46,753 nucleotides of DNA from Bacteriovoracaceae bacterium (lineage in GTDB: Bacteria; Bdellovibrionota; Bacteriovoracia; Bacteriovoracales; Bacteriovoracaceae), in assembly GCA_016784965.1 (NCBI GenBank), contig JADHTQ010000037.1, positions 1 to 46,753 on the forward strand. Reading direction: 5' to 3'. Under the pieces are notes generated by a model, which worked only from the letters and a program-made list of their open reading frames with translations, ran no database searches and was not told the DNA's origin. The stretch's first letter is position 1. Every line of letters begins with the position of its first letter. Positions 26,170 to 36,649 of the stretch are shown here, piece by piece. A program made the translations under genes and the position numbers.

Positions 26170-27507
26170 ATGAGTGTTTTTGAGCAATTTCCAGAGATCA
26201 CAATTCATTTTTCTAAAATATTTGGTACACCAATTTTTACCAAACATGGCAAAAGAATTGGCAAATTAAATGATTTTTTTGTAGATTACGAAGAAGTATA
26301 CCCCACGGTAATTGCTTTGCAGTATAAAAGAAACGGACTACATTTTAGTATTCCTTGGGAGGAAGTTAAGCGTTTTAATTTTAAAAAAATCATCATTAAT
26401 GATAAGACAAAAGCAATACAAAGCAAGTTATATCAAAATAAAGCACCTCCCCGTAAGATAACAAATATTCTTTCAGGTCATTTTGTTAAAAAAAGTGGTC
26501 CATTTCCTCCTTTGGGACAAATAGTTCTAGATAGACAAATTGTAGATACCCATGGAAAAAAAGTGGTTAGAGTTAATGATATTGAGTTCATAAAAGTTGG
26601 CCAAAATATCAAGGTTACTCATGCAGGTATTGGTCTGCGAAGCCTTATTAGACGTCTTGGGTTTGAGCCTATAGTTGACAGTATAATTAGATTGATCAGA
26701 CCAAAGGCCAAGTATTTAACTAGAGATGTGCTTATTAATTGGAAGTATGTTCATACTATTGCTGATCGCTCAGTTCATAACAATGTTAAGCTAAACTTGT
26801 CCAATCAAGATCTAAAGTCACTACATCCTGCGGATTTAGCAGATATCTTAGAAGACCTGGACGGGCATTCTAGAGAATTAATTTTTAATGAGTTGGAACC
26901 AGAAATGGCGGCCAAAACTCTTTCTGAAATTGATCCGGATATGCAGGTCTCATTTATTAAAAAAGAGGCCCCAGAAGATGTTGCCAAGATTATTGAGAAT
27001 ATGGGACCAGATGAAGCCGCTGATGTCCTGAATGAATTAGACGATGCCAGAGCAGGTGCAATTATTTCCAATATTGAAGATCCAGAAACTGGGGAAGAAA
27101 TTCAAGAGCTTTTAGAGTACAAGGAGGATACTGCAGGGGGACTAATGTCGACTGAAGTGTTTGCGGTTTCACCCGATACCAAAGTATCAGATATAATGAA
27201 AATTATAAAAGACAATCATGAAGAATTTGAATCAATTTATGATCTTTATATTGTTGATGACAACGAGATTTTGCTGGGTACATGTTCTTTGTATAAAATA
27301 CTTATCCAAAATGAGAATCTTTTTGTTGGAGAAATTATGACCAAGCAGCATATTATATCTCTTGGTCCTTCGGTTCACTGGAAAAAATTATCAATGAAGA
27401 TGAGTAAATATAATTTAATTAATATGCCCATTGTGGATAGTAACAATAAGCTTCTGGGGATTGTGTCAGTTGATGATGTACTTCCATGGTTGTTAAATGA
27501 GAGGTAA
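26170..27507 (+). CDS. PRC-barrel / MgtE N-terminal / CBS domain protein without transport domain
   Basis: This cytoplasmic 445-residue protein carries a regulatory head like that of the MgtE magnesium channel but no membrane part. PRC-barrel-like modules occupy about residues 10-75 and 115-160. The MgtE_N helical repeat spans about 215-320 (LHPADLADILEDLDG, then DPDMQVSFIKKEAPEDVAKIIENMGPDEAADVLNEL). A pair of CBS domains covers 320-445 (TAGGLMSTEVFAVSPDTKVSDIM, VGEIMTKQHII). It ends in TAA at 27505-27507, and the Nramp-like transporter continues in the same reading frame only 3 bases later. I infer it senses Mg2+ or a nucleotide and controls that transporter. No clear Shine-Dalgarno precedes the ATG. 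Confidence 0.88.
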   Translation: MSVFEQFPEITIHFSKIFGTPIFTKHGKRIGKLNDFFVDYEEVYPTVIALQYKRNGLHFSIPWEEVKRFNFKKIIINDKTKAIQSKLYQNKAPPRKITNILSGHFVKKSGPFPPLGQIVLDRQIVDTHGKKVVRVNDIEFIKVGQNIKVTHAGIGLRSLIRRLGFEPIVDSIIRLIRPKAKYLTRDVLINWKYVHTIADRSVHNNVKLNLSNQDLKSLHPADLADILEDLDGHSRELIFNELEPEMAAKTLSEIDPDMQVSFIKKEAPEDVAKIIENMGPDEAADVLNELDDARAGAIISNIEDPETGEEIQELLEYKEDTAGGLMSTEVFAVSPDTKVSDIMKIIKDNHEEFESIYDLYIVDDNEILLGTCSLYKILIQNENLFVGEIMTKQHIISLGPSVHWKKLSMKMSKYNLINMPIVDSNNKLLGIVSVDDVLPWLLNER

Positions 27508-27510
27508 GTT

Positions 27511-28779
27511 ATTACGATAGAAGTAAAAAAGCGTAACCTCCCTCCCTTTTTGGGCAAAATAGTCATATTGCTTGGAATTGTAGGACCTGGACTTATTACG
27601 GCCAACATTGACAATGATGCTGGAGGAATTGCTACTTACTCAATGGCCGGTGCCCAAACAGGCTACAGGTTACTATGGATACTACTACCTATCACAGTTG
27701 CACTTATCATGGTACAAGAGATGTCTGCACGTATGGGGATTGTTACAGGCAAAGGTCTTGCCGACTTAATTAGAGAGAGATATGGCCTAAGAATTACTTT
27801 CTACTCACTTTTTTTTCTCATTATTGCAGACCTTGGTAATACCATGGCCGAGTTTGCAGGAATCGCCTCCGCTGGCGAGATCTTTGGGATTTCCAAGTAC
27901 CTTTCTGTACCAGTTTGTTCTCTACTTGTATGGCTTCTAATTACCAAGGGAAATTATAAAATCATTGAAAGAGTATTTCTCATTGGCTGTACAGTTTATC
28001 TCTCCTATATCATCTCAGGATTTATCATAAGTCCTTCTTGGTTGGAAGTTGCAAAAAGTATGGTAGTACCCAATGTTTCTGAGCTAACTTCAGCGGACAT
28101 GCCGATAGTTGTCGGTTTAATTGGTACTTCAATTACTCCTTGGATGCAGTTTTATATTCAATCGGCAGTTGCAGAAAAAGGAATTTCCACTAAACATCTG
28201 CTCTATTCAAAAATAGATGTCATTGTTGGTTGTTTTTTTATGTTTGTTGTCACTTTGTTTATTATTATTTGTTGTGCTGCCACTCTCCACGATGTAGGAA
28301 TTGTGATAACAGATGCAAAAGATGCAGCTTTATCTTTGGCCCCACTGGCAGGAAAATACTCATCTGTATTGTTTGGAATCGGTCTTTTTAATGCATCAAT
28401 TTTTGCAGCTGCACTGTTGCCACTTGCCACTAGTTATTATGTATGTGAAGGGCTTGGGTGGGAGTCAGGGGTGGATAAGTCTTTTGCTGAAGCTCCAAAT
28501 TTTTTTACAATTTTTACCACTTTGATTGTTGTTAGTGCCATTACGGTATTGATTCCAAATATAAATCTTTTCAATATTTTAATTTGGTCTCAAGTTATTA
28601 ATGGAATCCTTATTCCTTTAATATTGTTGTACATAATTCATCTATGTAGTGACACAAGTATAATGGGAGAATATACCAATAGTTTGGTTTATAATTTAAT
28701 AAGTTATGGGATAGTATTATTGATGTTTATTGCTAACTCATTCTTAACTTTTTTTGAATTTAGTAAGTATTTCCTCTAA
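27511..28779 (+). CDS. Nramp-like divalent metal transporter with altered metal site
   Basis: This inner-membrane transporter has about 11 transmembrane segments and the Nramp/SLC11 fold. The usual first-helix motif DPGN is DAGG here (GPGLITANIDNDAGGIATYSMAG), and the sixth-helix MPH is TPW (GTSITPWMQFYIQSAVAEKG). The metal-binding Met is lost, which in the NRMT branch goes with Mg2+ transport; I infer Mg2+ or another hard cation. The first ordinary start codon (TTG at 27550) would cut residues preceding helix 1. An ATT at 27511 lies 6 bases after GAGAGGT, an excellent ribosome site, giving 422 residues starting TIEVKKRNLPPFL. The gene is in frame with the upstream MgtE-N protein. Its end overlaps the opposite kinase gene by 4 bases. 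Confidence 0.85.
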   Translation: MTIEVKKRNLPPFLGKIVILLGIVGPGLITANIDNDAGGIATYSMAGAQTGYRLLWILLPITVALIMVQEMSARMGIVTGKGLADLIRERYGLRITFYSLFFLIIADLGNTMAEFAGIASAGEIFGISKYLSVPVCSLLVWLLITKGNYKIIERVFLIGCTVYLSYIISGFIISPSWLEVAKSMVVPNVSELTSADMPIVVGLIGTSITPWMQFYIQSAVAEKGISTKHLLYSKIDVIVGCFFMFVVTLFIIICCAATLHDVGIVITDAKDAALSLAPLAGKYSSVLFGIGLFNASIFAAALLPLATSYYVCEGLGWESGVDKSFAEAPNFFTIFTTLIVVSAITVLIPNINLFNILIWSQVINGILIPLILLYIIHLCSDTSIMGEYTNSLVYNLISYGIVLLMFIANSFLTFFEFSKYFL

Positions 28780-30788
28780 ATTGCAATTAAGTCACAAAAG
28801 TCAATAGCGTCGCCAATATCTTCGACTTTCAATGTGATTTTTCTTCTGATATTTTTGGTAAATGGTAGGTAAGATATTTCAAATGTTCTGGGTGCAATGC
28901 TACCATTGCGGTTAGTTTTAAGTGGAAAAGCAATTTTAGATTTTAAAGGTATAGTTTCAACTCTTTCTTCTCCAAAAAGCTTAAAGAAGATCTTGCCTTC
29001 GGTGCACTCGTGGGATGTCATTAAATAAGCAAATTTCACAGCAGGCATCGATGGAATAGTTAGCTTTACTGTAGGGTTTTGCTCGGCTACAGTAAAGGTG
29101 TGGACATAGTGCTCTTTGCCTCGCTGTTCAACACGTAATATATAATTATCACCAAATTGTATATCCATGTCTCCTAGGATAGTGAGCTTTTGCTGCTTCC
29201 CGTTTATAAATATCCGCTGTTTGTATCGATCATAGTTTGAAATGTTTAATCTTCCCTTGGTAGGCAATACCTTATTCTTTTTTTGTTGCTGAATAACAGG
29301 TGCTGCCTTTTTGACCGTTCTTGTTGCTTGTTTACCTCCTGTACACATACTAAGAAGCATAATGAAAAAGACAACAGTGGCGGCAATTATGAGAGGTTTT
29401 TTGTGGGTACTCATGAGACCACTTGTGGGTATATTCTTTTTAGGTGCCTGCTCTTTTTGTACCTTTGCTTTTGCGGGCTCATTGCTTGGCTTGCTGGACT
29501 TTTTGCTATTATCCAGTAAATTTGATTTTTTCTTGGGAGATGCCTCGGAAGCCTGTACAAGAGGCTTATTTTTCTTGGATTTTTTTTCTAACTCAAAATT
29601 TGCAGGAGGTAATGTTTCTATCTCCCTTGGAGGGGGAGGACTAGGAGTCGGCTTTACTTTTGATTTTGTCCCCTCTGCCCGTTTTGGAGTGGCTTGAGCA
29701 GCAGCTGGGGCAAGCTGTTGCTGTGGTGGAGGCGGAGTTTGGGGATTATTTCGATTTTGCTCGCTTTTTAACTCATCAATATATGGAGCTAAATCAATTT
29801 GTCCAAAACTGTAAATCTTTCTTTTATCCTTGGCGATATCCTCTTCAAAGAGTTCTTTGCCAAAGTATGATAAATCCGTAGGGTTAAAATCAGGATATGT
29901 TGAGTACAAAAACTTAACCAGTGCTCGGTTAAATTTGTCTAAGTTCTCATATCGATCTTCTCGTTTTTTTGTAAGTGCTTTTAAAACAATTTCATCTAGT
30001 TCTGCTGGTACATTTGGGTTAATAGAAGACGGGGGAGGGATTTTACAGGTTTGAATTTGTTTTAAGATGGCAATATCATTTTTGGCCAAAAACAACTTCC
30101 TGCTGCACAACATTTCCCACATAGTGATCCCGAGAGCGAATTCATCATAGCGAGGATCTAAGTCTTTGCCTTCAAGGTATTCAGGTGCAATATATGATAA
30201 TTTTCCCTTAATAGTTCCTACTTGAGTGGTATCTGAGTTGGTGGCGGCTTTTGCAATCCCAAAGTCAATAATTTTAACTGCACCATCAAAAGTAATCATA
30301 ATGTTATGAGGAGAAATATCTCTATGGATTATGCGGGTAGCTTTTCCTGTGAGCTTATCAGTTAAAGTATGTGCATAATGTAACCCTTGGCATGCTTGTG
30401 AGATAATGTACACTGTAATTTCAATTGGGAAAACAAATTTTTGAGTTTTTAACTTATTAATAAATTGCCGCAAATTTTTACCATCTACATACTCCATTGC
30501 AGTATAAAGCTGCCCATTTTGCATACCGTAGTCATAGGTTTGGGCAATATTTGGATGAATTAAACCAAAAGTTACTTTGATCTCATTGAGAAACATTGTT
30601 CTAAAGGACTCATCATTAGAAAATTGAGGTTGTATCATTTTTATTACGACTACTTTGTCTGCTTGCTCCCCGAGAGTTCGGGCCCTGCATATTTTTGCCA
30701 TTCCTCCATCTACTAAGTGATCCAAAATTAAATATTTACCAAATCGTTGAATGGTGTTATTGCTTTTTGTTTCCGTCGTTTTGGTCAT
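28776..30788 (-). CDS. Membrane Ser/Thr protein kinase (PknB-type) with extracytoplasmic domain
   Basis: This is an active-looking Hanks-type kinase. Key residues are present: ATP lysine K50 (VVVIKMIQ), E69, catalytic D157 in HRDISPHN with N162, and D175 in IDFGIAK; the activation loop ends in SYIAPEYLEG. The variant HRDISPHN is common in Deltaproteobacteria and Myxococcota. A proline- and lysine-rich linker (about 345-455) leads to one transmembrane segment near residues 463-483. The outer part (about 500-670) is beta-rich, with a PEGA-like opening (KGRLNISNYDRYKQRIFINGKQQ). It should phosphorylate cytoplasmic targets, for which an FHA protein is encoded 5 kb away. The signal it senses is unknown. 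Confidence 0.9.
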   Translation of the reverse strand: MTKTTETKSNNTIQRFGKYLILDHLVDGGMAKICRARTLGEQADKVVVIKMIQPQFSNDESFRTMFLNEIKVTFGLIHPNIAQTYDYGMQNGQLYTAMEYVDGKNLRQFINKLKTQKFVFPIEITVYIISQACQGLHYAHTLTDKLTGKATRIIHRDISPHNIMITFDGAVKIIDFGIAKAATNSDTTQVGTIKGKLSYIAPEYLEGKDLDPRYDEFALGITMWEMLCSRKLFLAKNDIAILKQIQTCKIPPPSSINPNVPAELDEIVLKALTKKREDRYENLDKFNRALVKFLYSTYPDFNPTDLSYFGKELFEEDIAKDKRKIYSFGQIDLAPYIDELKSEQNRNNPQTPPPPQQQLAPAAAQATPKRAEGTKSKVKPTPSPPPPREIETLPPANFELEKKSKKNKPLVQASEASPKKKSNLLDNSKKSSKPSNEPAKAKVQKEQAPKKNIPTSGLMSTHKKPLIIAATVVFFIMLLSMCTGGKQATRTVKKAAPVIQQQKKNKVLPTKGRLNISNYDRYKQRIFINGKQQKLTILGDMDIQFGDNYILRVEQRGKEHYVHTFTVAEQNPTVKLTIPSMPAVKFAYLMTSHECTEGKIFFKLFGEERVETIPLKSKIAFPLKTNRNGSIAPRTFEISYLPFTKNIRRKITLKVEDIGDAIDFCDLIAI

Positions 30789-35470: not shown

Positions 35471-36649
35471 CTATTCCTCGTCGTAAATAGTTTTATGTCC
35501 AGCACCTTTGGTTTCATATGCGATGTCATTATCATCACCTGACTCTTCAACCGATTCTTCATAACCATCCAGGCAAGACTCAATGTTTAAATCTTTAAGT
35601 ATATTAAAAAATGATTTATCATCAATGAGATCACCAATAACGTTATCTAGTACTTTTACTGGAAACTTTTTTAGCAGTTCCTCGATAAAAATTTGGAGTT
35701 TCCCTTCACTCATAATGGCCTGTTTTTTCTTAATGTCTGACCAGTTTTTAATATAGTGAAAACGACAGTATCCACTTGTTGTATCAGGATTATCACAGCC
35801 TTTTTCAAGGCACTCATTGGAATCGCTTTTAAAAAAATCAATCTGTTTTAATGAATCAAAAATATCTTGCAGGGTAAAGTCTTCACTAAGCTCTAAGATT
35901 TCTTCAGCCAAGAGTTCTTTAATTTGAGAAAATGGTAATTTTTTATTAGATTTTTCTGGTTTTGTAGTCGCCTGCTCAATGAGGTTATCATTGTTGTCCA
36001 CATTGTCTGGGACGACTTTGATTATTGAGGTCTCTGCCTCTGTCTTCTTTTTCTTTGTAGTAGCTTTTGAGGAATTTTTTTTATCTGCCTTGGCAGACTT
36101 CTTCTTAGGTTTTTCAGACAACATCACTTGTGGAGTAACTTGACCCTTGCTGCGTTGCGCAGGTGTTGCGTTTTTGGGGGTTACCATCTTTGCTGGTGCC
36201 TTTTTGTTGGTCTTATTTTTAGCTTGTAGTGCTTTTTTCTTAGTGTTTTTTACTTCGGTTTTTTTAGTGATTTTCTTAGTAACTTTTTTAGCAATTTTTT
36301 TTGAAACCTTTTTAGTCACCTTTGTAGCAGCTTTTTTAGTGACTTTTTTGGCCACTTTTTTAGAAGCCTTTTTAGTGATTTTCTTTGTAACTTTTTTCGC
36401 GGCTGCCATATTTGTTTTTTTTGCGACCTTCTTTGTTGTCTTTTTTGCGACTTTTTTGGCAACTTTCTTTGTGACCTTTTTGGCAACTTTTTTAGTAGCT
36501 TTCTTGGCAACTTTCTTAGTAGCTTTCTTGGCAACTTTCTTAGTAGCTTTCTTGGCAACTTTCTTAGTAGCTTTTTTGGACGCTGTTTTATTCACGGTTT
36601 TAGCATTAATTTTCTTTGTCTTCTTACTGCTCATTTTTTTGGGGGCCAT
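35471..36649 (-). CDS. Histone H1-like lysine-repeat protein with C-terminal zinc-like motif
   Basis: Residues 5 to about 150 are made of K-K-V-A-K-K-A-T type repeats, like eukaryotic linker histone tails and bacterial AlgP/HctB-type proteins, and should bind DNA non-specifically. A mixed linker follows. A small C-terminal domain (about 230-392) contains C-x4-C-x9-C-x2-H (CLEKGC...TSGYCRFH, near residues 277-297), likely to bind zinc, then a helical acidic tail (EESGDDNDIAYE). The ATG at 36647-36649 has AAGGAGC upstream. It may compact the nucleoid, for instance in a dispersal cell type of a predatory life cycle; that is inference. The basic repeats also make a long antisense open frame, which I regard as spurious. 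Confidence 0.85.
   Translation of the reverse strand: MAPKKMSSKKTKKINAKTVNKTASKKATKKVAKKATKKVAKKATKKVAKKATKKVAKKVTKKVAKKVAKKTTKKVAKKTNMAAAKKVTKKITKKASKKVAKKVTKKAATKVTKKVSKKIAKKVTKKITKKTEVKNTKKKALQAKNKTNKKAPAKMVTPKNATPAQRSKGQVTPQVMLSEKPKKKSAKADKKNSSKATTKKKKTEAETSIIKVVPDNVDNNDNLIEQATTKPEKSNKKLPFSQIKELLAEEILELSEDFTLQDIFDSLKQIDFFKSDSNECLEKGCDNPDTTSGYCRFHYIKNWSDIKKKQAIMSEGKLQIFIEELLKKFPVKVLDNVIGDLIDDKSFFNILKDLNIESCLDGYEESVEESGDDNDIAYETKGAGHKTIYDEE
36480..36575 (-). repeat. Four 24-base tandem repeats inside the histone-like gene
   Basis: The + strand unit TTGGCAACTTTCTTAGTAGC + TTTC occurs four times in a row, at 36480-36503 (one mismatch), 36504-36527, 36528-36551 and 36552-36575 (last base changed). 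Each unit encodes eight residues of KKVAKKAT type. DNA identity is higher than needed for the protein, so copy number is probably recent and may vary between strains. Confidence 0.85.

Follow-up and report, generated by a model that had tools for sequence, protein, structure and literature searches.

Organization of the locus

The DNA analysed here is a stretch of 46,753 nucleotides (the window) from a Bacteriovoracaceae-like relative of the predator Bacteriovorax. Two adjacent genes on its forward strand are considered, the first encoding an MgtE-like protein (hereafter the sensor) and the second an nrmT-type transporter. Their features, with three related loci (L003, L007 and L030) for comparison, are as follows.

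26170..27507, + strand: sensor gene; ATG start, 445 aa; PRC-barrel, MgtE_N and two CBS domains (Pfam)
27499..27504, + strand: Shine-Dalgarno (SD)-like GAGAGG in the last sensor codons; duplex with the anti-SD, -7.1 kcal/mol
27505..27507, + strand: sensor stop codon TAA, at the same position as the sensor ends of relatives (PW-LL-x-E)
27511..27513, + strand: ATT, best-supported transporter start; no in-frame ATG, GTG or TTG upstream; aligned to the GTG of L003; ATT also in L007 and L030
27511..28779, + strand: nrmT-type transporter gene; 422 aa; DAGG (D36-G39) and TSIT (T206-T209); PF01566, E 1.4e-96
27550..27552, + strand: TTG, first canonical codon in the frame; rejected as the start (no SD, at the edge of TM1, product shorter than any family relative)

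A Ser/Thr protein kinase gene (28776-30788, - strand) is convergent with the transporter gene, and their 3' ends overlap by 4 bases. The product of 35471-36649 (- strand) has a long N-terminus with lysine/alanine-rich repeats (KKVAKKATKK) and is histone H1-like. The Rfam search gave no match over the cut-off in the window and nothing relevant at E values up to 10 near the two genes; the M-box riboswitch, which accompanies a subset of NRMTs and does not define them, was absent near the pair in this search. Hits of the promoter and terminator scan were no more numerous than in shuffled sequences. RNA folding at the sensor-transporter junction was ordinary (z 0.11) and thus gave no sign of a structured switch at this site.

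The sensor protein

As judged by Pfam, the sensor protein contains a PRC-barrel at residues 12-77 and MgtE_N at residues 218-320, followed by two CBS domains. The initial annotation had described an MgtE-N/CBS sensor; these domains were recovered, but the N-terminal PRC-barrel had been overlooked. The protein resembles the cytosolic domain of Thermus thermophilus MgtE (2YVX/2YVY) in its MgtE_N domain and CBS pair, and residues 23-252 of the latter can be aligned with it. However, the sensor is a separate protein without a membrane part, and it stops after CBS2, short of the plug helix. The MgtE membrane domain PF01769 was found neither in the sensor nor elsewhere in the window's genome.

For the comparison of single residues, we took D91, D95, D247, E59, E216, D226 and D250 of T. 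thermophilus MgtE to be the Mg2+ ligand positions. D91, D95 and D247 are retained in the sensor, whereas E59, E216, D226 and D250 are changed to K, K, N and P, respectively. With the ligand positions partly kept and several lost, Mg2+ sensing by this protein is something that we only infer.

Assignment of the transporter to the NRMT clade

The best solved relative of the transporter was EleNRMT of Eggerthella lenta (PDB 7QIA), with an E value of 1e-108, compared to 1e-22 for MntH proteins. In the tree, the transporter was grouped with EleNRMT and other NRMT-type sequences, apart from the two MntH rows, with full support; this tree has long branches and came from a quick search, and just its broad split is used here. 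The published NRMT signature is DxxG-TxxA/T (PMC8806188). Both halves are present in the transporter, as DAGG in TM1 and TSIT in TM6, with Thr rather than Ala at the TM6 Met position, which is still inside the published motif. The canonical Nramp/MntH features, DPGN of TM1 and the Met of MPH in TM6, are absent, being replaced by NDAGG and TSITPW. Canonical MntH/Nramp proteins share the fold family PF01566 with the transporter but lie distant from it (22-25% identity). In view of the similarity to EleNRMT, the tree split and the DxxG-TxxA/T motif, the transporter is assigned, by its sequence, to the NRMT clade, the Mg2+-transporting relatives of Nramp. The earlier reading of DAGG and TPW as substitutes for DPGN and MPH, and of the protein as NRMT-type, is thereby supported, and the phylogeny placed it away from the Mn2+/Fe2+ Nramp proteins, with which a grouping had been considered the adverse outcome.

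The transporter shares this clade and motif with EleNRMT and with Ca_c0685 of Clostridium acetobutylicum. An MgtE-N-like neighbour gene is found beside most members (PMC4072509, PMC8806188), a common but not obligatory feature that the window also has. Shin et al. (2014) described that most nrmT genes have a neighbour encoding a protein like the MgtE N-terminus and proposed feedback control for the pair (PMC4072509); the sensor-transporter pair as such is therefore not new. The window pair differs from the described ones in having no M-box riboswitch, an AUU start and a sensor with an N-terminal PRC-barrel. In some distant relatives (L059, L101, L071 and L093), the MgtE-like gene follows nrmT or is encoded on the other strand; the gene order is thus variable.

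The sensor and the transporter are separate genes

The frame that starts at ATG 26170 closes at TAA 27505-27507; from GTT 27508 it continues without a stop until TAA 28777-28779. As noted in the initial annotation, the two genes thus lie in one frame with TAA 27505 as the sole stop between them, and no ATG, GTG or TTG precedes TTG 27550 in the transporter frame. From this arrangement, it had been proposed that the sensor and the transporter are partly joined by stop readthrough. The coincidence of frames and the single intervening stop are what speak for such a fusion. Among 89 pairs with the sensor upstream, however, the frame offset was 0 in just 13, 1 in 27 and 2 in 49; since the offset varies, the shared frame of the window can be regarded as a chance outcome. 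No transporter ORF of fusion length (none longer than 486 aa) was found in 369 genomes of the phylum, and the survey of 118 ORFs from fetched loci of many phyla gave none with the sensor inside the transporter ORF. Moreover, the sensor stop coincides with the conserved C-terminus of the sensor. In four relatives that also have no canonical transporter start (L007, L030, L006 and L029), the two genes are in different frames, and readthrough therefore cannot supply the transporter start there. Readthrough at TAA 27505 is thus extremely improbable, and we consider the sensor and the importer, on these comparisons, to be separate genes. Of the earlier annotation, the observation itself, the assignment to NRMT and the start at ATT (see below) stand, and the readthrough does not.

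The transporter probably starts at a near-cognate codon

The ATT start had been placed 6 bases after GAGAGGT. The purine tract and the ATT are indeed there, but the tract is GAGAGG (27499-27504), the following T being the first base of the sensor stop codon, and the six bases TAAGTT separate it from ATT 27511-27513. The predicted SD duplex for ATT 27511 was -7.1 kcal/mol, compared to +0.6 kcal/mol for TTG 27550. When the transporter is aligned with L003, its closest relative, the window ATT falls on the GTG start of L003 (MDIDRPNIPPF / ITIEVKKRNLPPF).

The nrmT starts at 31 loci of the family were then compared. ATG was found at 22, GTG at 3 and TTG at 1, and the remaining 5 (the window, L007, L030, L006 and L029) had no usable canonical start. 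Where the window reads GAGAGG-6 nt-ATT, L007 and L030, which belong to one genus other than that of the window, read AAGGA-6 nt-ATT, and neither has an ATG, GTG or TTG from the in-frame stop to the GPG motif of TM1. These two differ by 56 synonymous changes in the first 140 codons and share the ATT nonetheless, which indicates that it has been kept. L006 and L029, two species of a third genus, read AAGGGG-5 nt-ACG, an apparent ACG start that is less certain and for which conservation is weaker. On the tree, at least three independent shifts to a non-canonical start are needed. Outside the family, a canonical start candidate was seen at every assessable locus. L071 was considered as a sixth non-canonical start and rejected, because its motif match proved false; this locus reads GGAGGGGTTTCC-TTG.

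As a control, the sensor starts were inspected, and the homologous start position was ATG or GTG in all complete sensor relatives. Non-canonical starts were counted in 0/29 sensors and 5/31 transporters (Fisher p 0.053, with related rows), a contrast that is suggestive only. About 200 ORFs of 200 codons or more, sampled from some 290 kb of the genome and from the window, were inspected for a near-cognate codon with a strong SD ahead of it, combined with an SD-less first canonical start. Few others had this combination, so that a missing canonical start is not routine in this genome. In one ORF of the same genome (L153, 1504-2382, + strand), codon 19 is an ATA that follows a strong SD, and the first canonical start is weak; it is possibly a further non-canonical start.

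In the same genome, infC (L131) has an ATT start with a strong SD in front of it (-12.2 kcal/mol). The start is ATT, ATC or ATA, preceded by a strong SD, in all 16 readable infC genes of the family (L121-L138), and it is ATT or ATC in the genomes with a non-canonical nrmT start.

Two other readings of the transporter start have to be weighed. With TTG 27550 as the start, the product would be about 13 residues shorter. This TTG is the first canonical codon in the frame, TTG occurs at the same place in L006 and L029, and some Nitrospirae relatives begin almost as near to TM1. Nevertheless, it has no Shine-Dalgarno sequence and is the start of no family relative; since L007 and L030 have no codon matching it, a canonical start is also not a general answer. 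We therefore regard this start as unlikely. Alternatively, ATT 27511 could stand in place of the ATG that most relatives have, through a mistake in sequencing or assembly or as a rare variant of the strain, the more so as it was read from a single draft assembly of 126 contigs. An ATT was found independently, however, in two species of another genus without any alternative start, and infC demonstrates the use of AUU in this genome, making an error or strain variant very unlikely. Translation of the transporter very probably begins at AUU 27511, as had been proposed; this start is favoured by the SD-like site, the L003 GTG alignment, the ATT of L007 and L030, and infC.

Exchange of NRMT and MgtE in the family

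Full-length MgtE was present in 4/31 family genomes with a close NRMT, compared to 80 of about 98 others (Fisher p 5e-12, uncorrected for relatedness and with some genomes incomplete). The two were exchanged inside four genera:

g3: NRMT in G002, G092, G094; MgtE in G093, G095
g8: NRMT in G089; MgtE in G007, G088
g11: NRMT in G010; MgtE in G060
g13: NRMT in G098, G099; MgtE in G012, G096, G097

CorA, MgtE and MgtA gave no match in the window's genome, which is 97% complete, and the transporter is its only Nramp protein, with no MntH elsewhere. The mutual exclusion of NRMT and MgtE and the lack of CorA, MgtE and MgtA in this genome favour the assumption that the transporter imports Mg2+. The results for Acidobacterium capsulatum point in another direction: its NrmT rescued mainly Mn2+ uptake and Mg2+ uptake weakly, and co-expression of the MgtE-like partner did not improve the Mg2+ rescue (PMC4072509). 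Because of them, the Mg2+ preference and the control by the sensor are both uncertain. If the transporter carried mainly Mn2+ and the MgtE-like protein had a role other than Mg2+ control, the absence of MntH elsewhere in the window's genome would be accommodated as well. However, NRMT takes the place of MgtE within genera, and the search of this genome yielded no further family of Mg2+ importers. Mainly Mn2+ transport is thus fairly unlikely, and Mg2+ import is the favoured function.

Discussion

The locus is probably best explained as a two-gene NRMT module, which builds on features established by sequence comparison (the NRMT clade, the site motif, the separate genes, the sensor domains and the conservation of non-canonical starts). 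Gene 1 would encode a soluble PRC-MgtE_N-CBS protein, and gene 2, as a protein of its own, an Mg2+ importer related to Nramp. Gene 2 would be translated independently from AUU 27511, three bases past the sensor stop, by means of the SD-like site in the last sensor codons. The ribosomes used would be terminating or SD-recruited ones, probably those that have just finished the sensor. AUU is a poor initiator and is restrained by IF3, so the importer level may be lower than the sensor level. The surplus sensor would then bind the transporter or the nearby membrane and damp the uptake at high cytosolic Mg2+.

Importer synthesis that is IF3-sensitive and low relative to the sensor is what we infer from known parallels. 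In other bacteria, IF3 restrains the near-cognate start of its own gene infC (PMC5472188, PMC13009471). Like infC, with its AUU or AUC start and IF3 autoregulation, nrmT has a near-cognate start after an SD, and both occur in the same genomes; infC, however, regulates itself, whereas control of nrmT by IF3 is putative. In the Streptomyces sigR-rsrA pair, sigR has a GTC start, IF3 repression has been demonstrated, and rsrA is in excess over sigR (PMC5472188). The nrmT pair may be alike, in that an effector gene with a non-canonical start adjoins a regulator that exceeds the effector. The Streptomyces pair is a sigma/antisigma pair with demonstrated repression, as opposed to the presumed repression of nrmT. 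Since 26/31 relatives use ATG, GTG or TTG, the module does not depend on the weak start.

What the comparison adds to the known gene pair is the recurrence of non-canonical importer starts and the exchange between NRMT and MgtE. To our knowledge, very few bacterial genes with non-canonical starts are well documented. At least three acquisitions of such starts beside a putative regulator would provide a natural test of whether the choice of start codon sets the effector-to-regulator ratio. Gene finders will misplace or shorten the nrmT start in these genomes. The NRMT/MgtE exclusion within genera gives comparative support for NRMT doing the job of MgtE. As a tentative possibility, the Mg2+ importer of Bacteriovoracaceae may have moved repeatedly to near-cognate starts (AUU twice and ACG once). 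In genomes with no CorA, MgtE or MgtA detected, this would bring the principal route of Mg2+ uptake under the control of IF3 and start fidelity, with a fixed excess of the sensor. If this is true, the Mg2+ supply would be coupled to the condition of the translation apparatus.
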